Source of the DNA: an uncultured Clostridia bacterium
GTDB taxonomy: Bacteria; Bacillota; Clostridia; UMGS1883
Assembly (NCBI GenBank): GCA_947589005.1
Contig: CANPZO010000001.1
Location: 124,001-188,000 of the forward strand
Direction: 5' to 3'
Length of the DNA stretch: 64,000 bases
Every line of letters begins with the position of its first letter. The stretch's first letter is position 1. The notes under the pieces were generated by a model. It was not told where the DNA came from, ran no database searches, and saw only the letters and a program-made list of their open reading frames with translations. Shown here piece by piece: positions 30,846-63,368 of the stretch. Position numbers and translations under genes: made by a program.

Positions 30846-33800
30846 ATGAAAAGAAAATTTATGAGCCTGATGACAGCCATGGCTATGACGGCGGCCTTTT
30901 TACCGGCGGTATCAATGGGCGCCGAAGCGAAGGCGCCGCGATATCAGACCACCGCCCGACAGATGGAAAAGCTCAACCGCGGCCTCATAGCCGTCCGAAC
31001 CTACGACGCCCCGCGCAACGGAATATCGAACGGAGTTTACCTGTCGTGGCGGCTTTTGGGTGACGAAAGCCTCGAGAACCAGGCCTTTGACATTTACAAA
31101 AACGGCACAAAAATCTATACCACCGGTCCCCACGACGCGACAAACTATACCGACCGAACCGGCACGGAAAACGATGTTTACAATGTGGTAAAGGCCGGGG
31201 CTTCGGCCTCGGAGGAACCGGGAGTAAAAGCCTTACCCGAGGGCAACCACACCGCCCGCGGCAGTCTTGTGGGCAACGGCAGCGAGGCCAACTCCTTCAC
31301 CTGGGTGGACATTCCTCTCGTCCGGCCCGCCGACGTTAAAAATCATGGCGGAAAAACCAGCGTATATTACGGCGACAACTGCGGCCCCAACGACGCCTCA
31401 GTGGGAGACCTGGACGGCGACGGGGATTACGAGCTTGTCCTAAAGTGGGACCCCAGCGACTCTAAGGACAGCGCAGGCAGCGGCTATACCGGCAACGTCT
31501 ATATCGACGCTTATGAAATAAGCCCTGACAACGGCGGATATATGTGGCGCATCGACCTGGGCAAGAATATACGCGCCGGCGCACACTATACCCAGTTCAT
31601 GGTCTATGATTTGGACGGCGACGGCAAAAGCGAGGTGGCCATGAAAACCGCCCCCGGTTCCCTTGACGGCAAGGGACTGTACGTCAATCGGGTGCTTGAC
31701 AGGCCACTTGTCGCCGGCGTTGACAACAACGACAAGGTCTACCTCAGCGGCAAGGGCGTTCCCACCGGCGGCGGCGAATACCTGACAGTCTTTGACGGCG
31801 AGACCGGCGAGGCCCTGTACACCACCGACTATATCTCCCGTGACGCGGGGGATTGGGGCGACAGTAAGTTCAACCGCAGCGAGCGTTATCTGGCCGCGGT
31901 GGCCTACCTGAACGGCGAAACCCCCTCCCTCATCATGTGTCGCGGCTACTATAACCGGGCTATGGTCCGGGCCTATGATTGGGACGGCGGCAGCCTTAAT
32001 CTCATTTGGGAGCACAACGGCGACTCCAAGCGCGACGACTCCCTCTACGGTCAGGGCAACCACAACCTTTCCGTCGCCGACGTGGACAACGACGGCAAAG
32101 ATGAGATAGTGTACGGCAGCGCCGTGCTCGATGACGACGGCAGGGCCATCGGCAACACAAAAATGGGCCACGGCGACGCCATGCACGTCAGCGACTTCAA
32201 CAACGACGGCGTGCAGGAGGTATTTTCCGTAAAGGAGGATTCCGGCGGCTACAGCAGGTCGGAGGATTTCCGAGTGGCGGCCACGGGACAGGCCATATAT
32301 TCCAAAAAATACAACGCCGACAATGGCCGCGGTTTAATGGTAAACGCGGACGACGGCTACGCCGCCTCCCATCCCAACGCCCTATCCATCGGCTGGAGCG
32401 CCTCGGGCGGCGAGGCCCATGACCTGACCGGCGGAAACATCGGCGCAAAGCCGGGCACCAACTCCCGCATGATGACCAATTTTGCCGTTTACTGGGACGG
32501 CGATTTGGGACGGGAGCTTTTGGACGACAACCAGCTTGCAAAGTACCACGCCGACGGGGGCTGGACGGGACGGTTCTATAACGACGGCCAGGGCTATATC
32601 CCCGGCTCCTCAAACAACAGCTCGAAGCAGACTCCCTGCCTGTCCGCCGACCTTTGGGGCGATTGGCGGGAGGAAATAATAATGAGGGTAGGCAACGGCG
32701 AGAACGAAGTTCCCTGTCTGCGCATCTTCACCTCTACCCTGCCGACCGCGTACCGGCTCACGACCCTGATGCACGACTGTCAGTACCGCCTTGGCGTGGC
32801 GTGGCAGAACGTGGCCTACAATCAGCCGCCCCACACCAGCTACTACATCGGCTCAGCTGCGCTGGCAAAGGATGCTAACGGCGCCACGCTGAACTATCTT
32901 GCTCCGGAGGTACCCTTTACGACTGTGCGTTATGCCGAGCAGGTGCCGGTCAGCGGCATTGAAATGGCGGAGGACAGTATAAGCGTGAAGGCCGGCGGCA
33001 CTTACCGGCTGACGGCGAAGGTCCTGCCCGAAAACGCCACCAGCCGCGGCGTGACCTGGACCTCCGACAACGAAAGCGTGGCCACCGTCAGCGCCGGAAC
33101 GGTAACAGGCATATCTCCCGGCACCTGTACGGTTACCGCCGAAACGGTAGACGGGGGCTATACCGCGGAATGTTCCGTAACGGTCCTTCCGGTGCGCGTA
33201 ATCGACGCCATGGACAACTCCATATTCGAAAGCCCGAACACCGACGCGGAAACCTCCTTCACCGGCACCGCCAATTCCGCCGCTTTAAATCAGGCGGACG
33301 CCGTCACCGGCGGCGAGTTTTACCGTGACCTGACACCCGTTTACGGCGGCAGGGCAACGGTGTCCTTCACCTTCAACACCGGCGGCAAAAAGGATAAAAA
33401 CGACGCCTGGAACTGGGAGGGCCGGGAATACACCCTGGGGCTTGAGTTCCTGGACACGTCGTATAAAAACATCCTGACCCTGTCGCAGAGCTACGGCCCC
33501 ACCGCGCAAAAGACAATGAGTAAAATCGGGACGGACGCCGACGAGACGGTGGAAAACGGCTGGACCTCCTTCGGCACAGGAAGCGAAAATCCGCTGAACC
33601 GCAGCTCCACCACCTGGCACGTAACGCTGACGCTGGATTACGACGAGGGTAAGGCTACGGCGGAAATTTTGGGCAGCAACCGTGACATCGGCTACACGAG
33701 GACCTTCGGCATCGACGGTCAGAGCCTCCGCCGCATCCGCTGCCGCACTTCCGTTGACGGCGGCGGTGGAATTACGGCAGGGCCCTATCTGACCGATTTA

Positions 33801-34865
33801 AGCTACAATATTGTTACGGAATACGAAAATCCATCGGTCACCCTTGACGGGGTAACCGGCGGTACGGCCGACTACACTCTCGTTGGCGAGGGCACGGTTT
33901 ACGGGGCGCTGTACGACGGCGGCAAGCTGGCGGAGGCCGTCACGGGCAGCGACGGCAGGCTTAGCTTCGGTCAGGACATCGACGGCCGCAGTCTCAAGCT
34001 CTTCCTTTGGGACGGTATGAGGCCCCTTGCGCCCGACGTTGAAACAGCCGCCCCCCTGCACAGGTTGACCGTTACCTCGGCGGAAGCCTCGGACGAGCCG
34101 GAGGCTCAAAATCCCGCGAAAAACGCCTTTGACGGCGACCTTAATACCGTCTGGACCTCGCAGGGCACGCAAAATATCGTATTTGATTTGGGCGAACCCC
34201 ATCGGCTGACCTGTGCGGAGCTGGCCTTCAAGCTGTATGAGGACGACCGTACCATTCCCTACCGGCTGTACCTTTCTCCCGACGGTCAGAGCTGGTCGCG
34301 GATATACGGCGGCAACAGCCTGCCGTTCTACGACGGATATATAAGCGTGCCCATAAATTCGTCAATGAAGGCACGGTATGTTAAGGCTGAGTTCGACGGC
34401 AACACCGTAAGCAACTGGACCTCGCTGGCCGAGGCGGAGTTTTACGGCGCCGACATAGAGGAGACTGAAATAAAGGCGGTATCCGTCGCCGCCACCGACG
34501 AGCCGGAAGCCCAAAATCCCGCCGCAAACGCCGTGGACGGAAATCCGAACACCGTTTGGACCTCGCAGGGAACTCAGAGCATCACCCTTGATTTGGGCGA
34601 AATACGGCGGCTCACCGCCGTTGAAACGGTCTTCAAGCTCTATGAGGACGAGCGCACCATCCCGTTCCGCCTGTACATTTCCAAGGACAACAGCAGCTGG
34701 ACCTCTATCTACAGCGGCGGCAGTATTCCCTTATACGGCGGCAGCATTTCCGTTCGGCTCCTAACAGCCGCGGAAGCCCGCTATGTAAAGGCGGAATTTG
34801 ACGGCAACACCGTAAGCCGGTGGACCTCGCTGGCGGAAATAAGGGCGCTGGGATTGGAAAGGTAA
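30846..34865 (+). CDS. secreted PL11 rhamnogalacturonan lyase with Big2 and two F5/8C modules
   Basis: 1339 residues. Signal peptide, then the PL11 catalytic region (about 35-690): MEKLNRGLIAVRTYDAPRNG is the family entry motif, followed by propeller blades with Ca-binding repeats of the form DLDGDGDYELV and DVDNDGKDEIVYG. A Big2 Ig-like domain follows (about 700-782), then a beta-rich region (about 790-1000) and two F5/8 type C modules (about 1080-1205 and 1215-1338) that are close duplicates. It cleaves the RG-I backbone by beta-elimination outside the cell; GH105 products fit downstream. No anchoring signal at the C-terminus. Copies of the intergenic repeat flank the gene on both sides. 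Confidence 0.93.
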   Translation: MKRKFMSLMTAMAMTAAFLPAVSMGAEAKAPRYQTTARQMEKLNRGLIAVRTYDAPRNGISNGVYLSWRLLGDESLENQAFDIYKNGTKIYTTGPHDATNYTDRTGTENDVYNVVKAGASASEEPGVKALPEGNHTARGSLVGNGSEANSFTWVDIPLVRPADVKNHGGKTSVYYGDNCGPNDASVGDLDGDGDYELVLKWDPSDSKDSAGSGYTGNVYIDAYEISPDNGGYMWRIDLGKNIRAGAHYTQFMVYDLDGDGKSEVAMKTAPGSLDGKGLYVNRVLDRPLVAGVDNNDKVYLSGKGVPTGGGEYLTVFDGETGEALYTTDYISRDAGDWGDSKFNRSERYLAAVAYLNGETPSLIMCRGYYNRAMVRAYDWDGGSLNLIWEHNGDSKRDDSLYGQGNHNLSVADVDNDGKDEIVYGSAVLDDDGRAIGNTKMGHGDAMHVSDFNNDGVQEVFSVKEDSGGYSRSEDFRVAATGQAIYSKKYNADNGRGLMVNADDGYAASHPNALSIGWSASGGEAHDLTGGNIGAKPGTNSRMMTNFAVYWDGDLGRELLDDNQLAKYHADGGWTGRFYNDGQGYIPGSSNNSSKQTPCLSADLWGDWREEIIMRVGNGENEVPCLRIFTSTLPTAYRLTTLMHDCQYRLGVAWQNVAYNQPPHTSYYIGSAALAKDANGATLNYLAPEVPFTTVRYAEQVPVSGIEMAEDSISVKAGGTYRLTAKVLPENATSRGVTWTSDNESVATVSAGTVTGISPGTCTVTAETVDGGYTAECSVTVLPVRVIDAMDNSIFESPNTDAETSFTGTANSAALNQADAVTGGEFYRDLTPVYGGRATVSFTFNTGGKKDKNDAWNWEGREYTLGLEFLDTSYKNILTLSQSYGPTAQKTMSKIGTDADETVENGWTSFGTGSENPLNRSSTTWHVTLTLDYDEGKATAEILGSNRDIGYTRTFGIDGQSLRRIRCRTSVDGGGGITAGPYLTDLSYNIVTEYENPSVTLDGVTGGTADYTLVGEGTVYGALYDGGKLAEAVTGSDGRLSFGQDIDGRSLKLFLWDGMRPLAPDVETAAPLHRLTVTSAEASDEPEAQNPAKNAFDGDLNTVWTSQGTQNIVFDLGEPHRLTCAELAFKLYEDDRTIPYRLYLSPDGQSWSRIYGGNSLPFYDGYISVPINSSMKARYVKAEFDGNTVSNWTSLAEAEFYGADIEETEIKAVSVAATDEPEAQNPAANAVDGNPNTVWTSQGTQSITLDLGEIRRLTAVETVFKLYEDERTIPFRLYISKDNSSWTSIYSGGSIPLYGGSISVRLLTAAEARYVKAEFDGNTVSRWTSLAEIRALGLER

Positions 34866-35313
34866 AAATGGGGCTGTAAAAAAATGGCGCAGATCTGCGT
34901 CGTCACAAGCTCGGTATCGCGTATTTCGATTGAGAAATCGAAACACGGCTTACCTCGCTGCGACTCCTTTTCCCCACAAAATCGGCTTCGCCGTTTTGCG
35001 GGGGCCCCATTTTAGCTGAATGACTTAATTTAAGGCAAGTTCGATTGGTTTATAATCAACCAATAAAAATAAAATAGTGTATTAATGAAGAAAATTCGCC
35101 CTTACGAGCGAATTTTCTCATTTTTATGTCCTTGAACTACGAACGAAAATCACCCTCGGCGTACCTGTGTACGCCGTCGGGAGGGCTTGCTCGGCGGCAG
35201 GGCCGCCTGCGCGAGCTGATTTTCGTTCGTTCTGCACGATTTTTTTGGACAGCCCCAGTGCCTCCAGATTACATAGTGAATCTTTCCGCGGCCCGATATT
35301 TTTATGAAATTAT
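34866..35313. other. intergenic region holding repeat copy B, between convergent PL11 and GH43-like genes
   Basis: 448 bases without a gene: the copy B repeat (34870-35275), with local hairpins TTTCGATT / AAATCGAAA (34936-34955), AAAATCGGC / GCCGTTTT (34978-34998) and GAAAATTCGC / GCGAATTTTC (35091-35116), and the structured core at 35140-35229. No conventional T-tract terminator for either gene was found, so these hairpins may serve that role. Confidence 0.65.
34870..35275. repeat. intergenic repeat, copy B
   Basis: Same left end as copy A (GGGGCTGTAAAAAAATGGCGC) and the same 150-bp right part; the middle differs and is longer. The right end is degraded (the TTTTTTACAGCCC of copy A appears as ATCTTTCCGCGGCCC). 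The core stem is perfect here (CGAACGAAAATCA with TGATTTTCGTTCG). Confidence 0.7.
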
Positions 35314-38300
35314 TTATTCGGCTTCCTCAATATATACACGTCTTGCCTCGTCGTTCCAGTTTACCTCGCAGCCGAAGCTCTCGGCAATGGCCCGAACGGG
35401 TACCATGGTGTTGTTATTGATTATCTGCGCGGGCACGTCCAGAGTCTTGGCCTCGCCGTTCACATAGAGCTGGTCGGAGCCAATAGCCAGGCTGATGGTC
35501 GTGTCGCCTCTGGAGGCGGTAACGGTGCGGGTGGCGTCGTCCCAGTTGACGTTCGCGCCCATAGCTTCAAAGATGGCGCGGAGAGGAACGAGGGTCCTGC
35601 CGTTTACGATAACGGGCTTCTGTCCGTAGGAGTCAAATTCAATGTTTTTGCGGTCGTAGCCCACAAGTATCTCCTGTCCCAGCGGAACATTTTCGTCCAC
35701 ATGGCCCACGGGCTTGCCGTAGATGGCTACCTCCTGAGGCTTGCCGCCCCAAAGAGCGGAGGCGTTGCCGCCCTGGATATTCTTGACGTCCTCGACGGTT
35801 ACCTTTACATATCTGTAAGGAGTTGTGTCGGTAACCCAGCCCACATGGAAGCCGCCGTCGTCATAGTCGTTATCGGTAACATTGGCTATCTCGGTCCATG
35901 TGTTCATGTCGTTGCTGCCGTAAGCCCTATAATAGGAGGCGCAAACGCTGCCCATATAGATGTCGTTGGTGAGGTTGACCTCGGTGATGACCGTGGGTAC
36001 CTCAAGGTCTACCACGATATCGAAGGGAACGCTGTCCACCTCGGCCACAGGCGAGGATTGAAGCTGAAGGTTGTCAGTGAGCTCGGGAGCCTCGCGGCCA
36101 TTGATGGTGGCCTTCTTGCCGAGGGATACGTACTCGCCGGACTGAACGGCGATGGCGCCCCAGTAGGGGTCATATTCCATACGGTAGCACCAGCTTCCGG
36201 TGGCTACACCGTTGTTGATGGCCAAATCAAAGAAACGCTGGTAGTTATTCTTTCTCCATCCGCCGCTCTGACCCCAGTTGTAGCCGTGTCCGCGCTGAAC
36301 CACACGTCCGGACTCGCTGCCGTAGCCCCATACGCCGTTGGCCTGAGTGCCGAAGGTAGAGGTGTTGGCCACCTCGCGCAGGGGACTCCAGGGCTGGTTG
36401 AGGGCGGGGCTGCTGGAATAGCGGGCCTGGCTCTGGAACCATCCGTTGGTGGTGGAGGTGTACACGTAGTAGGCGTTGCCGTCATGGAATACGGAGGGCG
36501 ACTCCTGATGCTGACCCTTAAGAATTATGTTGGTGACCTCTTCGGGAACTACCCAGTTGTCCTGAAGCTTGAGTATCATCATATCCTGATTGTTGTTGGT
36601 GGCGCTGAAGGTATAGAGATCGTGACCGTCAACAAAGCGTACCATATCACGGGAATCGTGACCGAAAGGACGGCCCACGTACCAGCCGGAAAGCTGGTTG
36701 GTGCCGGCGTTGTCATACAGCTCGTACTGCTCAAGCTGGTCCATATGGTTGATGATATTGCCGGTGGCGGGGATAACGTAGAAGGGTTCCACCTCATGGT
36801 CGCCCTTGCCGGGCTGGAAGGTGGCAAAGAACAGCTTGGAGCAGGCAAAGCCGGGGCCCTCCGCATGGGAGGAGAAGGAAATGGTTTCGCCGTCGTACTT
36901 AAGGCCGTTCTGTTTGCCCTCCATACGGATATCCACAAAGATGGGATAAGCGTAGGTCCACTCCTCGGGCCAGTTGAAGCCGTCGTCGCTTTCCTTGTAG
37001 CGGATAGCCATTACGGAGCAAGCCTTGTCGAAGTTGGCCAGATCCTCGGCGCTGGTGAAGCCCAGGGACATGAAGGTCTCCTTGTTGATACCGTCAAGGC
37101 CGACGCTGTAATACTTGTCGCCTATGTGGTAACCGCTGGGAGAAGGCTCAACTATGCGGTTGGGGTCCTCGTTGGGCTTCCATCCGCCGTTTACGTTGTC
37201 GTCATAGCCGTTTGAGTTGGCGACGTTGATGGCAAAGGTGAGGGTGGTGTTGGTTGTGCCGGTGACAAGCTCCTTCCCGTCCGCGTCGTAAGCCTTTACG
37301 GTGTAGGATATGTTCTTGTTGATGGGCAGGTCATACTCGTCATAGCAGTCGCCGATGGCCGTGCCGATGAGAGCGCCGTCCCTGTATATCTCGTACTTCT
37401 TGGCGCCCGGATACATGGGCCAGCCTATCTTGATATTGTTGACGGTGTTCTCGCCCTCTATGCGGTAAGCCGAGGCGGTGGCGGCCCAGGGCTTGTTGTA
37501 TACCCAAGCCTCGACCATTCCGCTCATAATACCGCTGGAGGAAATGCTCCTGGCCTTTACATGAGCGGTGCCGTCGGCATAGAAGGGGCCGGTATACCTT
37601 GCGCTCGCGGTCGTGGGATCGGTGCCGTCAAGCGTGTAGTAAACATGACCCTCGGAATAGTGAGCGATGGTGATGGGCTCGAAGGTGTCAACGAGATAGC
37701 TCTCGCTGCCGCCGCTTACGTTCATCACGGGAGCGGTGTAGCCCGCCATGTACTCGTCGATGTCCTGAGCGGTCAGCGCCCGCCCGAACACATAAACATT
37801 GTCTATAAGGCCGGAGCCGGAAACGCTGAGGCCGGTAAAGCCCGCAAGGGCGCCGGCGGCGTCATATTCGCCGGGGCCGGAAACAAGCTCTCCGTTCACA
37901 TAAACGTCTATCTTGCCGGGCGCATAGGCCACAACCACCTTTTTCCACTCGTGAGCGGTCACCGGAGCGGCAACACTGCCCTCGGGGGCGGAAGCGGTGA
38001 CGGCGGCGCCGTCGTCGGCGATGGTGAAGTGACCGCCGGCGTCCTTAACCGTGAGCTGGCTGTCGGGGGCGGTCTTGCTGTCGAAGGATATCGTGAAGGA
38101 GCCGATAGCCACGGCGTTGATGAAATTCAAATTCATTCCGCCGCCGGGATTTACGGCGTTGCCGTAGCACTCCTTGGATTCCTCCGCCGCTCCGCCGGAA
38201 ATCGAGGCCCCCACGGGGTCCTTGTCAAAATCCGCGGAAGCCAGCATACAGTCGCCGGCGTCAAGAGGCAGCACCGAAACGGTATAGGTCTTGCTGTTGC

Positions 38301-39246
38301 CGTTAAAGCTCATCGTGAGCTGTACGTCCTTGGGAGGCTGGCCGTAGTCGGGACGGTTGGTAAGCCCGCTGACGGGGTCAAGGGCCGTTATGTCCGCGGA
38401 CTCCCACGTAAGGCCGGCGAAACTGGGAAGGTCGATGCCGTTCCTTATCTTCATGCCGTCAAGAGAGGCGGTTTGCTTCAGAAGGTTGTCCCAGATGGCG
38501 GGAGCGTTGGCCTCAACGTCGATGTCCACGGTTATCTTTAGGTTCTGAAGGCCCATGGCGGCGTACTGGTTGTTCCACTGGCCAAGATTGGCCTTAATGC
38601 TGCCGATACCATTGACGGAGGCAACACTGTCGGTGGCCACGACTTTGCCGTTGCTTGTATATGTAACGGTCCAGCCCGAGCCGCTCTTAACCGCGGTAAT
38701 ATTCATGCTCGTGCCGCGGAGGGCGTATACCGCGTCCTTGCCGTCCGCATAGGCGGCGGCGCTGCTTCCGCCGCTGCCGGCGCAGGCTTTGACGCCCTGG
38801 TCGTAGTATACGGTGGCAAAGGGATTGCCGTCCAAATCGTTAAAGGTCCAGGTCTGGTAGTTATTGTCCTCGTCCTGCATGGCGAAGGTGTAGTCAATAA
38901 CTATTTTTTCCGCACCGGCGCTTATCTCGCTGCCGGAAACATTGGCGGTAAGGTTTTCGTCATTACCGTTCTGACGCTGTCCCACACGCCAAAACATAAG
39001 AGCGCCCGGGCCCCAGGGGTCGGTGTTCCAGGTGCCGTTTTCGCTCCACTGAGAGCTGAACACAGCGCCCTGATCCCCGCTCCATCCGTACTCGTCAAGG
39101 GGGATGTCGCCGTGAACGCTCGTGTCAATGAGCGAAGCGTCGAACAGTACATAGCTCCCCAACGCCGCGCTGGCCGTAATGGCGAGCATCGGCACGCAGG
39201 AAACTATCATAGCCAGAACAATGGCCATTGACAAAAATTTTTTCAT
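35314..39246 (-). CDS. secreted multidomain GH43-like glycoside hydrolase with stalk anchor
   Basis: 1310 residues. Signal peptide (KKFLSMAIVLAMIVSCVPML), galactose-binding-like region (about 30-240), a linker, a LamG/concanavalin-like module (about 330-500), a chitobiase C-terminal-like module with VYYTLDGTDPTTASARYTGP (about 530-580), a fibronectin-III-like stretch (about 590-670), a beta-propeller catalytic region (about 675-1060; HQESPSVFHDGNAYYVYTST is a GH43-style blade), an F5/8C-like module (about 1065-1200) and two stalk repeats (1210-1310; VNGRTLVPLRAIFEAMGANV, NNNTMVPVRAIAESFG). I infer arabinan or galactan side-chain cleavage from the fold and neighbours; catalytic residues were not assigned. 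Promoter at 39282-39310. Confidence 0.7.
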   Translation of the reverse strand: MKKFLSMAIVLAMIVSCVPMLAITASAALGSYVLFDASLIDTSVHGDIPLDEYGWSGDQGAVFSSQWSENGTWNTDPWGPGALMFWRVGQRQNGNDENLTANVSGSEISAGAEKIVIDYTFAMQDEDNNYQTWTFNDLDGNPFATVYYDQGVKACAGSGGSSAAAYADGKDAVYALRGTSMNITAVKSGSGWTVTYTSNGKVVATDSVASVNGIGSIKANLGQWNNQYAAMGLQNLKITVDIDVEANAPAIWDNLLKQTASLDGMKIRNGIDLPSFAGLTWESADITALDPVSGLTNRPDYGQPPKDVQLTMSFNGNSKTYTVSVLPLDAGDCMLASADFDKDPVGASISGGAAEESKECYGNAVNPGGGMNLNFINAVAIGSFTISFDSKTAPDSQLTVKDAGGHFTIADDGAAVTASAPEGSVAAPVTAHEWKKVVVAYAPGKIDVYVNGELVSGPGEYDAAGALAGFTGLSVSGSGLIDNVYVFGRALTAQDIDEYMAGYTAPVMNVSGGSESYLVDTFEPITIAHYSEGHVYYTLDGTDPTTASARYTGPFYADGTAHVKARSISSSGIMSGMVEAWVYNKPWAATASAYRIEGENTVNNIKIGWPMYPGAKKYEIYRDGALIGTAIGDCYDEYDLPINKNISYTVKAYDADGKELVTGTTNTTLTFAINVANSNGYDDNVNGGWKPNEDPNRIVEPSPSGYHIGDKYYSVGLDGINKETFMSLGFTSAEDLANFDKACSVMAIRYKESDDGFNWPEEWTYAYPIFVDIRMEGKQNGLKYDGETISFSSHAEGPGFACSKLFFATFQPGKGDHEVEPFYVIPATGNIINHMDQLEQYELYDNAGTNQLSGWYVGRPFGHDSRDMVRFVDGHDLYTFSATNNNQDMMILKLQDNWVVPEEVTNIILKGQHQESPSVFHDGNAYYVYTSTTNGWFQSQARYSSSPALNQPWSPLREVANTSTFGTQANGVWGYGSESGRVVQRGHGYNWGQSGGWRKNNYQRFFDLAINNGVATGSWCYRMEYDPYWGAIAVQSGEYVSLGKKATINGREAPELTDNLQLQSSPVAEVDSVPFDIVVDLEVPTVITEVNLTNDIYMGSVCASYYRAYGSNDMNTWTEIANVTDNDYDDGGFHVGWVTDTTPYRYVKVTVEDVKNIQGGNASALWGGKPQEVAIYGKPVGHVDENVPLGQEILVGYDRKNIEFDSYGQKPVIVNGRTLVPLRAIFEAMGANVNWDDATRTVTASRGDTTISLAIGSDQLYVNGEAKTLDVPAQIINNNTMVPVRAIAESFGCEVNWNDEARRVYIEEAE

Positions 39247-56603: not shown

Positions 56604-56879
56604 ATGCCGCACCGCTGTGAAAAAGAAATCTCCCTGAGTATGCCCGACACCATGCTCTCGGAAATTGATTTTCTCGCCAAGCTTGAGAACAACAGCCGCA
56701 ACGACCTCATCGTTCAGATAGTCCGCTCCTACCTTAAGGAGAAGCGGAGGCTGGAGATGAAATCCATGATGCGAGCGGGTTACCTTGAGATGGCGGAGCT
56801 CAATCTCAAAATCGCCAATGAGTCCCTTTTCACTGATGAAATTGCGTTAAGCGCCTACGAAAATTTTATCGGAGAGTGA
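56604..56879 (+). CDS. ndoAI: EndoAI/MazE-like ribbon-helix-helix antitoxin
   Basis: 91 residues. N-terminal strand ([20 protein letters not shown]) and a helix ([20 protein letters not shown]) with the ribbon-helix-helix pattern, then an acidic/amphipathic C-terminus that should bind the toxin. Neutralises the downstream NdoA and likely represses its own promoter. SD AAGGAGG precedes the ATG. The toxin GTG follows the stop after 7 nt. Confidence 0.87.
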
Positions 56880-56886
56880 AAATCAA

Positions 56887-57237
56887 GTGATTGTAAAACG
56901 GGGCGATATTTTTTACGCGGACCTGAGCCCGGTGGTTGGCTCGGAGCAGGGCGGCATCAGGCCGGTGCTGGTGGTGCAGAACGACGTGGGGAACAAGTAC
57001 AGCCCCACCGTAATTGCCGCCGCCATAACCAGCCGGATAAACAAGGCCAAGCTCCCCACCCACATCGAGATAGAGGCCGCGCAGTACGGACTGCAAAAGG
57101 ACAGCGTTGTGCTGCTGGAGCAGATACGAACCATAGATAAAAAGCGCCTTCGGGAAAAAATAGGACGTTTGGACGAAATACAAATGGTCAAGGTAAACGA
57201 CGCCATTTCCGTAAGCTTTGGATTGGGCGTGAGATAA
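56887..57237 (+). CDS. ndoA: NdoA/MazF-type mRNA interferase (PemK family)
   Basis: 116 residues, standard length. Sequence-specific ribosome-independent RNase, chromosomal EndoA type. Conserved features: [39 protein letters not shown], and [18 protein letters not shown] then [12 protein letters not shown]. These include the Arg and Thr/Ser of the RNA-binding site. The start is GTG at 56887 with GGAGAG about 10 nt upstream. Follows ndoAI; the Bacillus-like synteny with alr points to a chromosomally stable pair and not to a mobile one. Confidence 0.96.
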
Positions 57238-57778: not shown

Positions 57779-57871
57779 CGCTTGAGGGCAAGCCGCCCTG
57801 CGGCGGCGTTTTTTCACCAGGAAAAAGCGTCGGAGCAAAGACAAACTTTGCCCCGACGCCGGTATGCGCCA

Positions 57872-57896: not shown

Positions 57897-60839
57897 TTAG
57901 ACGGGCGTCCCGCAGTTGCCGCAAATTCTGTCGTTTTCGCCCAGCTTTTCACCGCAGTGCTTACAGAACTTAGCCTTTGACGGGTCGTCCGGCCTGGGCG
58001 GTGTTTTCCCGGGAGCGGTCTTGCGGGTGTACACCGTGGGGCGGGTGGGCAGCTGCGCCTTTTTGGGGGCAACCTTATAGCTCTTTTTGAGCTTCTTGAA
58101 AAACCTCCTGCCCATAAGTATGAGTATAAGAAGGATTATCGCCGCTGCTATGCCCGCTATCAGATAGATAATCCAGGTGTAATCGACCAGCTCGCCGTCC
58201 TCGTTGGGGCCGGCCTTATAGGTCTCGTCTGTTTTGCCGTCGCCGTCGGTATCGACCTTGAGCACTATGTCGGACTTCGGATTAGCCTTGGCCACGGTGG
58301 TTATTTCGGTCCGCTTTGTTATGTCTATATCCTCAAAGCTGCGCAAATCGCTGTACTCGCCGTTCTCGTCCATATAACCGATGGTATAGGTCATGCTGCC
58401 CTTGCCGTTGCCCTTTATTTCTATGTCATAATCGGCGCCGTCGTCCTTGAGCCGCAGTATCTTTATCCTGTTGTCCCGGCCCTCCTCCGGCTCCTCCTCC
58501 TGTTCGAAGGTAAGGGTGCCGAAACCGGTCCTTGTACTGAGATGGTCCTCATCGGAATTGAGCCTTTCGCCGTCATGCTTCACCGAAACGTCCACCGGAC
58601 AGGCGATGCGTATGTAAATATATTTCTGTCCGCTGACCTGGGCGGCAATGTCCTCGAAGAAGAACACCAGATCGTCGGCGTCGGCCACCTCGTAGTGACA
58701 GCCCTCGCTGGCTATGCTCTCCATGAGCGACTGGGCGGCGGTCTTGTCGGTGCCGTTCAGCGACTCAAAAAAGCCGAGAGTGTATATGTATATTCCGTTG
58801 TCCTTTATCTCGTCGGCAAAGGATATCAGCTCGCTGCCCTGACGTCCCTCGTTTGGCATGCCGTCGCTCATCAGAACGATTATCTTTTTCTTTGCCTTAC
58901 CCTCGTTAAGCATTTCATAAGCCTTTGTGAGGCCCGCGTCGATGCTGGTGCCCCCGCCGGTACCGATACGGTCTATGGCGTCCGTCAGCTTCTTTTTGCT
59001 CTGGGTCGGGTCAGCTTCCTCATACGCCCTGTCATCGTAAGTGACTACGGCGATGCCCGAGTCCTCGTCAAGGGCCGTTTCCACAAACTTACGGGCGGCA
59101 TTGCGGGTTTCCTCGATAGGAGTACCGGACATACTGCCGGAAACATCCAACGTAAGAATTATTTCACGCTCCGCTTCAAAGCCGATAGCGGCCTCAAGAG
59201 CCATATTCGCGTTCACCAATCTGTAGGAATTGTTAAGCGGATGCTGAGACGACGTATTATCGGACACGTCATACAGCGTGTTTTCGCAGACGATACGTTT
59301 TACTTCCGCCCCCGACAGGGCGCTATTGGCGGCCCAAACCATAGCCGCTACGCCCGTCACGATCGGAGCCGCCATAGACGTGCCGGACATATACGCACAC
59401 TTGCCGCTAACGCCGCCCGGGACCGTGCTGTACACGTCCGTACCGGGAGCGCATATATCCACCCTCGATCCGGCATTCGAGTCCGCTCTTTGCGTATAGC
59501 CGTTATTGCCGTCCCGTTCGGCGGCGCCGACCACTATCACCCTATCCAAAACATCCTGAGCGGTCACGTTTGCGTATGTAACGCAGTTTCTCTCGTTTAT
59601 CGAAGAGAACAGCCCATTATATGAGGCGTCGACCGACGTGTGAGAGGCGTTTCCGTTTCCGGCGCTTTGTACCACAACAAAGTCATACCCCTTGCTTATC
59701 AGGCGCGCAAGGTATGTCGAGGCTACGCTTCCCTCACGGTCCACATCGGCGCCGCTCCTGTACGTGCCCGATATGCTGCCTGTCTGCCCCGCGGAAAGGT
59801 TGACCACCTTGGCCCCGCTTTCAACCAAAATAACGGTACCCGCGAGTATCTGATTTGTGGTGCTCCACCCGCCGCTTAAAAGCTCTTGTAAAGCGGTCAG
59901 CTTCCAATCCCACGTCACAAGATTGCACTTGTGGACAAGACCGGAAATCCCCTTTCCGTTGCCGTCCTCGGCGGCAATAATGCCGGAAACATGAGTCCCG
60001 TGATCATCCTTGTTATTTACCGGAGACACATATGTGACAACTTTTTTCAAATCATAATGCCCGTTGTCAACGCCCGCGTCCACTACGCCGACGGTAATGT
60101 GCTTAAGCTTGTCGTCACGGTCCCACGCGCTTATGGCGTCTATCGCTTCCACCCACCAGTTGGAGCCGTCCGGAGAGTCCTCGGACCAGGTTTCCTTTTT
60201 TCCTTTCTCCCACGGGTCGTTCGGAACCATATCCTCAGACAGCTCAAAAGCCTCGTCATAGTACGCCTCAAACACACAGCTGTTTTCCTTGAGCTTGTCA
60301 CAAATGGCCGTAAGCTCCTCCAGTGTGCTCTCCTTTACCTTGACCTGATATTGATTGATGATTGGCAGGCTCCCCACAACTATGCCGTCTATGGAGTCAA
60401 TAACCCTGTCTATCTCTCTTTCCGAAGTCCCATCGTTAAAGAAAATGAGCACAATGTTATTTATATAGGCTATCCCGGACTCTTCATCATAGCTTACCGA
60501 ATTGTCGTCAGGGACATATGCGCTTCCCGTAGGCTGTATGATTTCGGGAATTTCATCCTCGGCCGCCACGCCTCCCCCGTCGGAGTCGCCGTCGGCCTTC
60601 TCCGTTTTTTTATCGGCAAAAAGGCCGTCCAGCAGCGGAAGCTTGAAAGACGCGAGCTTTGCCGCCGCAACCACGGCTATACCTATGACGAGCAGCACGG
60701 CCAGAGTTATAAGCGTTATTCTTAATCCCCACCGCTTCTTCTTCGGCGGTTTGCCGCCGCCGGTCACATAACCGCATTGTGGGCACACGCCCTTATCCTC
60801 GTCCATTCGAAAGCCGCATTTTTTACAGAATTTAGCCAT
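57897..60839 (-). CDS. double zinc-ribbon membrane protein with subtilase and VWA domains
   Basis: 980 residues. N-terminal zinc ribbon (Cys5, 8, 19, 22), membrane helix (about 38-62), an N-terminal propeptide-like region, a peptidase S8 domain with Asp in VGVVDAGVDNG (about 254), His in DHGTHVSGI (about 281) and Ser in SGTSMAAPIVTG (about 487), a VWA domain with MIDAS motif LDVSGSMSG (about 568-750), a beta-rich stretch, a second helix (about 890-912) and a C-terminal zinc ribbon (Cys959, 962, 973, 976). The implied topology puts protease and VWA outside and both ribbons inside. I know of no named family with this full set. Role unknown; adjacent to the multi-stalk gene. Confidence 0.9.
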   Translation of the reverse strand: MAKFCKKCGFRMDEDKGVCPQCGYVTGGGKPPKKKRWGLRITLITLAVLLVIGIAVVAAAKLASFKLPLLDGLFADKKTEKADGDSDGGGVAAEDEIPEIIQPTGSAYVPDDNSVSYDEESGIAYINNIVLIFFNDGTSEREIDRVIDSIDGIVVGSLPIINQYQVKVKESTLEELTAICDKLKENSCVFEAYYDEAFELSEDMVPNDPWEKGKKETWSEDSPDGSNWWVEAIDAISAWDRDDKLKHITVGVVDAGVDNGHYDLKKVVTYVSPVNNKDDHGTHVSGIIAAEDGNGKGISGLVHKCNLVTWDWKLTALQELLSGGWSTTNQILAGTVILVESGAKVVNLSAGQTGSISGTYRSGADVDREGSVASTYLARLISKGYDFVVVQSAGNGNASHTSVDASYNGLFSSINERNCVTYANVTAQDVLDRVIVVGAAERDGNNGYTQRADSNAGSRVDICAPGTDVYSTVPGGVSGKCAYMSGTSMAAPIVTGVAAMVWAANSALSGAEVKRIVCENTLYDVSDNTSSQHPLNNSYRLVNANMALEAAIGFEAEREIILTLDVSGSMSGTPIEETRNAARKFVETALDEDSGIAVVTYDDRAYEEADPTQSKKKLTDAIDRIGTGGGTSIDAGLTKAYEMLNEGKAKKKIIVLMSDGMPNEGRQGSELISFADEIKDNGIYIYTLGFFESLNGTDKTAAQSLMESIASEGCHYEVADADDLVFFFEDIAAQVSGQKYIYIRIACPVDVSVKHDGERLNSDEDHLSTRTGFGTLTFEQEEEPEEGRDNRIKILRLKDDGADYDIEIKGNGKGSMTYTIGYMDENGEYSDLRSFEDIDITKRTEITTVAKANPKSDIVLKVDTDGDGKTDETYKAGPNEDGELVDYTWIIYLIAGIAAAIILLILILMGRRFFKKLKKSYKVAPKKAQLPTRPTVYTRKTAPGKTPPRPDDPSKAKFCKHCGEKLGENDRICGNCGTPV

Positions 60840-60882: not shown

Positions 60883-63279
60883 TTATTCCGAAACCTCGTA
60901 ACAAATCAGTCCGCACTCTCCGCAGACCTGCTTAAACTCCTGAAACGAAAGGTCGCCGTCGCCTGAATAGAGCATGAACTCCGCGCGGCCGACATTCCAG
61001 CTTCCGAGCAGAGAGCCGTCGGACATACGGCGCACGGAGGCGGTGCTGCCGCCGGCGATGGCCGTGTCCTCGTCTACCGTCACGCCGCCGACGGGGAAAA
61101 GCGCCCCACCGTTTACGGCGCCTCTGAGCACATAGCTGCGCCCGTTCAGGACAAAATCCACCTCCGCTATCCTGCCGTCCCAAATCAAATAGCTCACTTC
61201 GGCGCTGCCGTAAGGAGCGGAGGCGTTTACGCCCGCGGCCTCCAAATCAATGTACAGTTCAGCTTCGGCGGCCGTCATGCCGGCATCAAAATCTATCTTT
61301 TCCTCGGGCTCAGGCTCGGTTTCACGGACCATGACAAAGGTGCCGGCCGCCGACAGAGCCTCGTTGTACAAATCGGCCGAGTCAACGGGGGTATCGGCGC
61401 TCAGGCTGAATTTATAGGCCCCTATCTCCCAGCGGGCCGCCGGGCCGCCTGATACCGTGCCGGTAACTATCGACGTGGGGACTCCGTTGACGGTGCTTCT
61501 GTGGCTCAGCCTCGGGCCGACAAAGTCCCTATCCTCCAAAACCGCGCTTTCCGCCTCGACGGACGCGCTGAAGCTGTATACGGTATTCCCCGTCCTGTAC
61601 CGTACCATGGCGGTATTGCGGTTGGCAACGCCGTATTCCACATCCGCCGCGCCAATGGGCGCGTCTATCGTAAATCCCAGCGGGATAACAAATTCTTCCT
61701 TATTTTTTACCGGCACGGTCGTAATGACCTTCGGCTTTACCGGAGAGGTTATTTTTACCGTCCGGCTTTCCGCGTCCCAATCAACCGCCGCGCCGAAAAA
61801 TTCCATTACCGCCCTTATGGGCACACAGGTGCGGTTGTCTATTATGGCCGCCGGCACGTCGAGCTTGGAGCTTACGGCCTCGCCGCCCCTGGTTCCGGTC
61901 AGAACGTCGCTGCCTATGGTCAGCAGCAGACTGTCGCCGCCGCTTTCGATGGACGCGGCGTCGCCCAGCCAGGTGACCTTCATATTCATTTCCTCTGCCA
62001 CGGCGCGGACGGGTATAAGGGTGCGTCCCTCTATCACCACCGGCTCTGCGTCGGGAAAGACTATTGTCCGGCCGTCCAGCTCTACCGTTATGGGCTTTTC
62101 CGGAGTTACGGGCACAAACGGCTCCGCCGCGGGGTCGGTGAGCTCGATAAGTCCGGCTTCGGAGCTGAAATCCAGCCCCAACGCCTCGGCTATCAGCCGG
62201 AGTCCGTCCTCGGTGACCGTCAGCCGTTCATCGGCGACCGCGGGCGGCGTGTCGAGGGCGCCGGATGTGTGGCGGCCACCAGAAACCACCTCGAACCTGT
62301 CCTCACCGGCGGTCAGCGTGACTGACGCACCGTCAGCCGAGGTAATAACGGCGGTATCCTCACCGGCGTCAAAATCCATTCCGGCCGCCTCCATGGGGAA
62401 CCTCAGCGGTATGGCCTCCGCCGAGGGCTGTACGTCCGGGAACACCGTAAGCACGCCGTTGACCTTTACGGCCAGAGGTCTGTCCCAGGAAATGAGCAGA
62501 TTGTTTTTATACCTGCTGTAGCTGGCAGCGCCGCCAAAATACTCCACCATGCCCAGCACCGAGTCGCTGTCCATATAAAGCCGTTCCCTGTCATACAGTA
62601 TCTTGGCCGCCTCGTCGTTGTGGGAAAAGTTTGGCCCCTCGGTCTGCTCTCCGCCATAGCTGAGCGTCGCCCCGCGCCCGCTGCCGCTTTGGTCTATGAT
62701 AAAGCTTCTGTTTTCAACGTCTATGTAATATTCCAGTCCAAGGCCCTTTGTAAGCGTCATGAGAGGTATATACCACACATCTCTGACATAGGACCTCTCC
62801 CCCATATCAAGTCTGTCGCCGTTCACCACGAGCGACGGGAAGTCCTTTGTATCCACCGTCAGCTTTCCGCCGTCAAGGGCGGCGTTATAGCCAAAGCCCT
62901 CGGCCAGGCGCAGCATGGCCGCGCCGCTGATGCAAAGCTCCCCATCCGTCACAGAGATATCTCTGTCGGCGATAAAGACGGAACTGCCGAACTCTATAAC
63001 TCGCTGGCCGGCCACAAGCTCCACACTGGCGGCGCCGTCCGAAAGGACAGCCGTCCCCCTCTGGGGGTACCAGGAATACTTAAGCCCCAGCGCCTCGGCC
63101 GCATAGCGCACCGGCAGCATGGTCGCCCCGTTGTCAAGGGTCGGCCCATGGCCGTCAAAGGACACATAAAAGCCGTCCACAAGCATATCGAGGGCGGCGG
63201 CCTCCTCTCCGCAGGCCACGGGGCCCCCGCCAAGTACAAATATCATAGATGCAAGCAGCAACGCGGTCAATTTTTTCAC
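60883..63279 (-). CDS. secreted multi-stalk protein
   Basis: 798 residues from a GTG at 63279, with GGAAGG upstream. Signal peptide, then at least four stalk (copper amine oxidase N-terminal-like) modules, e.g. ATMLPVRYAAEALGLKYSWY, VWYIPLMTLTKGLGLEYYID, RTLIPVRAVAEEMNMKVTWL and NRTCVPIRAVMEFFGAAVDW. The last 220 residues (about 575-798) are a beta-rich region without a known domain. Probably a surface-exposed scaffold or binding protein. The zinc-ribbon protease gene follows by 43 bp, so the two are likely co-transcribed. Promoter TTGACA-N18-TATAAT at 63339-63368. Confidence 0.85.
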   Translation of the reverse strand: MKKLTALLLASMIFVLGGGPVACGEEAAALDMLVDGFYVSFDGHGPTLDNGATMLPVRYAAEALGLKYSWYPQRGTAVLSDGAASVELVAGQRVIEFGSSVFIADRDISVTDGELCISGAAMLRLAEGFGYNAALDGGKLTVDTKDFPSLVVNGDRLDMGERSYVRDVWYIPLMTLTKGLGLEYYIDVENRSFIIDQSGSGRGATLSYGGEQTEGPNFSHNDEAAKILYDRERLYMDSDSVLGMVEYFGGAASYSRYKNNLLISWDRPLAVKVNGVLTVFPDVQPSAEAIPLRFPMEAAGMDFDAGEDTAVITSADGASVTLTAGEDRFEVVSGGRHTSGALDTPPAVADERLTVTEDGLRLIAEALGLDFSSEAGLIELTDPAAEPFVPVTPEKPITVELDGRTIVFPDAEPVVIEGRTLIPVRAVAEEMNMKVTWLGDAASIESGGDSLLLTIGSDVLTGTRGGEAVSSKLDVPAAIIDNRTCVPIRAVMEFFGAAVDWDAESRTVKITSPVKPKVITTVPVKNKEEFVIPLGFTIDAPIGAADVEYGVANRNTAMVRYRTGNTVYSFSASVEAESAVLEDRDFVGPRLSHRSTVNGVPTSIVTGTVSGGPAARWEIGAYKFSLSADTPVDSADLYNEALSAAGTFVMVRETEPEPEEKIDFDAGMTAAEAELYIDLEAAGVNASAPYGSAEVSYLIWDGRIAEVDFVLNGRSYVLRGAVNGGALFPVGGVTVDEDTAIAGGSTASVRRMSDGSLLGSWNVGRAEFMLYSGDGDLSFQEFKQVCGECGLICYEVSE

Positions 63280-63338
63280 AACAAGCACCTTCCGAGTAAA
63301 AAATATAAAATCAAATGTATAATAAAGCTTATGGTTTT

Positions 63339-63368
63339 ATTATACCACATATGGCCGCGCTGTGTCAA
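63339..63368 (-). promoter_or_regulatory. promoter of the multi-stalk gene
   Basis: Minus strand TTGACA (63363-63368), 18 nt, TATAAT (63339-63344). Confidence 0.75.

Follow-up and report, generated by a model that had tools for sequence, protein, structure and literature searches.

Zinc-ribbon membrane proteins of Bacillota such as TcaA have an N-terminal cytosolic ribbon, one membrane helix and a domain outside the cell. A protease and a VWA domain are found in the same protein in the animal CLCA family, whose members contain a metalloprotease-like domain and cleave themselves (PMC6851300, PMC10669480). The mycosin MycP of type VII secretion is an S8 protease, and it has a role independent of its own protease activity (PMC5082899). 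The RsgI anti-sigma sensors of Clostridium thermocellum are outside-in membrane proteins that sense extracellular substrates and have a cytosolic signalling part (PMC12203970). VWA domains combined with exchangeable enzyme domains are known among the effectors of the MoxR-vWA ternary systems, which are defined by a MoxR ATPase (PMC7159879). Here, a Clostridia protein is described in which an S8 protease, a VWA domain and two zinc ribbons are combined in one polypeptide, and this protein is compared with its relatives and with the systems above.

Gene and Domain Organization

The window, i.e., the whole stretch of 64 kb that was analysed, carries on its minus strand an open reading frame (57897-60839) that starts with ATG, is preceded by the RBS-like sequence AGGGAGGG and encodes 980 amino acids. 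All features of the protein are given below with their minus-strand coordinates. At the N-terminus there is a zinc ribbon (residues 5-22, CKKC-N10-CPQC; 60774-60827) followed by a first membrane helix (residues 41-59; 60663-60719), a region resembling an S8 prodomain (about residues 116-200; 60240-60494) and an S8 subtilase domain (residues 246-527; 59259-60104). Next come a VWA domain (residues 560-724; 58668-59162), an all-beta domain (residues 730-885; 58185-58652) and a second membrane helix (about residues 888-908; 58116-58178), which leads into a strongly basic cytosolic stretch and finally a C-terminal zinc ribbon (residues 957-976, CKHC-N10-CGNC; 57912-57971).

The Pfam matches are clear for Peptidase_S8 (E 3e-32, 112 bits against a cut-off of 21.8) and VWA (E 1.5e-21, 77.8 bits against a cut-off of 23.8), and Zn_Ribbon_1 matches two stretches with E 7e-9. 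The prodomain-like region gives a weak match to Fervidolysin_NPro (E 0.007); in L061, a relative with S8 and VWA domains, the match to this family lies above the Pfam cut-off (4e-5). None of the subtilase residues D254, H280, N395 (the oxyanion Asn) and S488 are missing, and the MIDAS is complete with D565, S567, S569, T631 and D659; the VWA assignment is also borne out by a structure model. The cysteines C5/C8/C19/C22 and C959/C962/C973/C976 form a CxxC-N10-CxxC motif at each end of the protein. This is the sole reading frame in the window with a CxxC-x(7-16)-CxxC motif, one copy being found at each end.

Both membrane helices were located by hydrophobicity (segments 41-59 and 890-908), and the flanking charges give their orientation. 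The first helix has six positive and no negative residues on the inner side and five of each on the outer side, while the second has one positive and five negative residues outside and nine positive and no negative residues inside. Both zinc ribbons are therefore predicted to be cytosolic, and the part containing the protease and the VWA domain to be outside. The original prediction had proposed the order ribbon-helix-S8-VWA-helix-ribbon, an intact D/H/S triad and MIDAS, and paired CxxC motifs spaced by ten residues at both ends. These proposals agree with the Pfam domains and hydrophobic segments, the residue check and the cysteine positions, respectively, and the proposed topology holds as a prediction from the flanking charges.

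A Conserved Chassis

Judged from sequence comparisons, residues ~555-910, i.e., the VWA domain, the all-beta domain and the membrane helix, are a conserved chassis that is new here. Clostridia proteins that carry other heads share it at 42-63% identity and do not match the rest of the window protein. A whole-protein search of 60 related genomes, including seven of the same genus, gave no full-length relative; in these genomes residues 556-928 were found at 54-63% identity in proteins with different N-terminal halves. In a second collection a Roseburia protein matches residues 555-896 at 48%, and identity is 42% in L034, the most divergent of the clear members.

A conserved Dx(D/N)GDGxxD loop, located at residues 863-871 in the window protein, closes the region that follows the VWA domain, and no Pfam family matches this region. 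Membership of the family was judged by three features in succession, namely this beta domain, a membrane helix and a basic tail, all of which are present in the window protein. It matches the post-VWA profile A2 with E 2.9e-77, the window sequence itself being one row of that profile. Across ten chassis members 27 columns are invariant. L035 matches the profile only weakly, has no discernible MIDAS and was not counted as a member. The post-VWA profile found matches in 9 of the 391 class genomes (a count that includes the source genome and one doubtful match), 3/28 of the order, 3/70 of another family and 2/398 of a phylum sample, and the chassis is thus rare and patchy. The profile had no match in viral contigs, where an SGNH member (see below) gave two short matches, both outside the chassis. 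A whole-protein search of plasmids recovered the S8 part only, in generic proteases, and the search of phages S8 proteases only, mostly of Bacillus phages.

A model of the chassis made from two sequences (pLDDT 67.6) displays a VWA domain, then beta strands and then a helix. Its VWA domain aligned best with that of the pilus-tip protein Mfa5 (Z 21.6, rmsd 2.3 over 172 residues), followed by anthrax toxin receptor 2, integrin I domains and SpaC, all with Z about 18. Since the modelled domain is closest to extracellular adhesive VWA domains, ligand capture is the favoured role, although VWA structures are much alike and the fold alone shows no function. The VWA domain dominated the structure search, and for this reason no new fold is claimed for the domain that follows. 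A model from the S8 domain to the membrane helix, made from three sequences, was too poor to use (pLDDT 46).

Exchangeable Heads and Cytosolic Ends

Of the members recovered with the post-VWA profile, those at seven loci (L028, L029, L030, L031, L032, L037, and L040) carry an SGNH esterase head on the chassis. These heads match the Pfam GDSL lipase family with E 1.7e-7 to 2e-6 and a lipase/phospholipase in PDB with 2.8e-6. Another five (L009, L033, L034, L036, and L039) have a predicted His/Cys caspase-like head with an invariant HG / C dyad; L039 is partial, being cut at the N-terminus, and its head was labelled by eye. Searches of PDB and Pfam gave nothing credible for these heads, and the caspase-like label is thus a prediction from the invariant dyad only. 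L038, on a short contig, is a divergent chassis copy with a putative papain-like head. Among the members found, only the window protein has an S8 head, and neither the 391 genomes of the class nor the 28 of the order yielded an ortholog that joins such a head to this chassis.

As more than two types of head occur on one chassis, repeated head exchange is required. In the chassis tree the window chassis is placed beside that of the caspase-like L033 (support 87/93). Neither forcing all SGNH members together (AU p 0.37) nor forcing all caspase-like members together (AU p 0.13) was rejected, so repeated swaps within a head type are not proved by the tree.

The cytosolic parts also vary. A C-terminal zinc ribbon is present in the window protein, L030, L031, L033, L034, and L037. 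Like the window protein, the caspase-like L034 bears a ribbon and a helix at each terminus; of the other caspase-like members, L036 has the N-terminal and L033 the C-terminal pair. In L009 a cytosolic FHA domain replaces the C-terminal ribbon, and in the SGNH members L028, L029, L032, and L040 the cytosolic part is a short basic tail only. Not every member has zinc ribbons: they are missing from L029 and from the protein encoded next to it (see below).

The surroundings of two members deserve description. L009 comes from a Roseburia MAG and lies in a cluster (L009:9437-17016) whose products, next to the caspase-like VWA-FHA protein, are PP2C phosphatases, FHA proteins, Ser/Thr kinases with a zinc ribbon in front, and a VWA-FHA membrane protein. 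At L031:4748-13650 there are, besides the SGNH-VWA gene, seven genes for proteins with CxxC-CxxC motifs, membrane helices and differing outside parts.

The Partner Gene of the SGNH Loci

Each of the seven SGNH genes is immediately preceded by a gene for a single-helix membrane protein whose ectodomain is conserved; the genes of a pair overlap by 1-4 bp or are 15 bp apart. No Pfam family matched the ectodomain in the two partners scanned. The partner has an N-terminal zinc ribbon in L028, L031, L032, and L040, and none in L029 and L030. At L037:980-1874 the partner frame is broken by an in-frame stop after the ribbon-coding stretch, which may be real or an assembly error.

When a profile of the helix and juxtamembrane part of the partner was run against 1604 ORFs, the first non-partners were the N-termini of L036 (2e-10) and L034 (5e-6), with a weak match in L033. 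After these three had been added to the profile, the window protein was found as a weak match (domain E 0.0022, whole-protein E 0.16). These profile matches support the view that L036 and L034 carry the membrane part of the partner fused at their N-terminus; for the window protein they are no more than suggestive.

Relatives of the Subtilase Head

Related S8 heads are found elsewhere in a secreted protein (L010) and together with SLH domains (L008, L054, and L055). Except in L008, where Asp is replaced by Glu, the related heads retain both the triad and the oxyanion Asn. L057 and L061 encode proteins with a helix, a prodomain, an S8 domain, a VWA domain of another subfamily, a second helix and four zinc ribbons. 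The overall TM-S8-VWA-TM-ribbon architecture has thus either originated or persisted in a second lineage. At L062:6636-13201 there are tandem genes, each encoding an N-terminal zinc ribbon, a proline-rich linker, a helix, an S8 protease and CarboxypepD_reg repeats. The anti-phage S8 protease IetS / IteS was considered and rejected, as the score was 24.8 bits against an NCBIfam cut-off of 900, and the IetS model of PADLOC gave a partial match of 28.6 bits.

The original prediction had called for a search for other proteins with the same domain order. This search yielded the same arrangement at both ends around another head in L034 and the related order with four ribbons in L057/L061, and no S8 ortholog on the chassis. 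The protein fits better into a head-swapping family, as one of its members, than as a unique sensor-protease.

The Operon and Its Surroundings

The gene upstream of the protease gene (60883-63288, minus strand; the ribosome-binding site is better for a GTG at 63279) encodes an exported protein in which Pfam recognises three Cu_amine_oxidN1 (stalk) domains. It is transcribed in the same direction as the protease gene, from which it is separated by 43 bp. A promoter-like TTGACA-18-TATAAT sequence with 12 of 12 consensus positions (63339-63368, minus strand) is located upstream of the stalk gene, and a hairpin resembling an intrinsic terminator, with 15 pairs and a T tail (57826-57860, minus strand), downstream of the protease gene. 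Because of these flanking signals, the two genes are probably one two-gene operon.

The 2.1-Mb genome has 30 matches to stalk domains in about 27 ORFs, which makes a stalk neighbour weak evidence of partnership, and conserved adjacency of a stalk gene was not seen at the loci of other chassis members. The stalk protein had been named as a possible partner or substrate of the protease: a shared operon is likely, and the idea of a dedicated partner is weakened by the abundance of stalk ORFs and the missing linkage. The co-occurrence with multi-stalk proteins that had been suggested as a check did not appear at the other loci.

The flanks of the locus are ordinary, with genes for a penicillin-binding protein, YjeF/NAD(P)HX repair, alanine racemase and carbonic anhydrase. 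A ribbon-helix-helix and PemK/MazF-like toxin pair (56604-57237) adjoins the operon. Further away in the window (30846-39246), a large rhamnogalacturonan lyase (PF21348, with F5/8C domains and Big_2) is encoded opposite a 1310-aa protein with LamG, chitobiase-C and stalk domains on the other strand; these are probably pectin-related surface proteins.

Proposed Function and Alternatives

The architecture, the intact active sites, the conserved chassis, the exchangeable heads and the operon signals can all be read from the DNA; proteolytic activity, prodomain cleavage, ligand capture and a docking role for the ribbons are what we infer. With moderate confidence, the protein is taken to be a two-pass surface protease of a modular chassis family, where the VWA domain captures a target, the S8 head acts on it and the ribbons dock inside. 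The VWA domain would grip the target outside the cell by its MIDAS, a metal ion helping, and the attached head, here the subtilase, would then cleave what has been captured. The cytosolic ribbons might serve for docking to a partner inside the cell, or keep a complex assembled. Maturation would probably involve a cut between the prodomain and the catalytic domain, giving a ribbon-helix-prodomain piece and a protease-VWA-helix-ribbon piece, both anchored in the membrane. Such a pair would resemble the SGNH loci, where separate adjacent genes encode the TM-ectodomain partner and the SGNH-VWA-TM protein.

Signalling across the membrane, as originally suggested, would mean that binding, cleavage or self-cleavage on the outside alters the ribbons and thereby signals to kinases or regulators inside, following a logic like that of RsgI. 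That both ends of the protein are predicted to be inside fits such an outside-in sensor, as does the location of L031, L036, L037, and L039 among other zinc-ribbon membrane proteins. The best hint is the FHA domain of L009, whose neighbouring genes encode a Ser/Thr kinase prefixed by a zinc ribbon as well as PP2C phosphatases and FHA proteins. However, the window gene has no linked gene for a kinase, sigma factor or regulator, and the four SGNH members ending in a short basic tail have no further cytosolic domain, which leaves a sensor role possible but doubtful. The operon structure, with its full promoter match, short gap and terminator after the protease gene, would also suit a protease that assembles or processes surface proteins, with the stalk protein as substrate or client. 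As for mycosin, the protease activity might then be secondary to a structural role, and the S8 domain does score 96.2 bits on the mycosin model TIGR03921. This is, however, far below the NCBIfam cut-off of 278.75, and stalk domains are too abundant in the genome, and too inconstant as neighbours of the other members, for this reading to be other than improbable. The combination of a VWA domain with exchangeable enzyme domains brings to mind the effectors of MoxR-vWA ternary conflict systems of the VMAP type (PMC7159879). Yet ORF lists and a Walker A scan revealed no gene for a MoxR AAA+ ATPase beside the window gene or any other member, and the family is therefore not regarded as such a system. 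The VWA domain is moreover predicted to be extracellular, lying between signal/TM segments, and PADLOC gave no match beyond subtilase models, so that this reading is hardly credible.

For the surface protease with a capturing VWA domain, the consequences would be that some Clostridia, including those of gut and rumen, own a head-swapping surface platform with ligand binding, a hydrolase and cytosolic docking in one protein. Adhesion would then be linked to proteolysis or ester cleavage, and possibly to signalling, in Gram-positive commensals. The occurrence of several enzyme heads on the same chassis lets the roles of capture, catalysis and docking be separated. A wider suggestion, put forward tentatively, is that the family constitutes a new class of bacterial transmembrane hydrolase-receptors. 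These would have one chassis with interchangeable heads (subtilase, SGNH esterase, and caspase-like) and docks (zinc ribbon and FHA), and would be outside-in receptors coupling capture and cleavage of a target to a response inside the cell.

Comparison with Known Systems

The original prediction stated that no described system had this form, and none was found in Pfam, NCBIfam or the open-access literature searched; the chassis family is apparently undescribed so far. The VWA adhesins Mfa5, SpaC, anthrax toxin receptor 2 and the integrin I domains share with the window protein an extracellular VWA domain with a MIDAS. To our knowledge, they have neither an S8 or SGNH enzyme nor cytosolic ribbons. 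TcaA of Staphylococcus aureus, a zinc ribbon domain-containing protein (PMC10611510), is similar in the ribbon-helix layout only, as it is without protease, VWA domain, second helix and C-terminal ribbon. The likeness to RsgI (PMC12203970) is one of logic only; RsgI has a sigma-factor-binding part inside and no VWA domain. Exchangeable enzyme domains are common to the chassis family and the MoxR-vWA systems, whereas the VWA domain is here predicted to be extracellular.

Mycosin MycP (PMC5082899), like the window protein, is a membrane-anchored S8 protease facing outward, but it has no VWA domain and no ribbons. No type VII secretion genes were recognised among the ORFs inspected around the protease gene. 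The CLCA model TIGR00868 has a weak, VWA-level similarity to L009 and L034. CLCA proteins differ from the window protein in being of animal origin, in having a metalloprotease rather than an S8 domain, and in their lack of zinc ribbons, but in both a protease is joined to a VWA domain outside the cell, and some CLCA proteins are membrane-anchored and self-processing.
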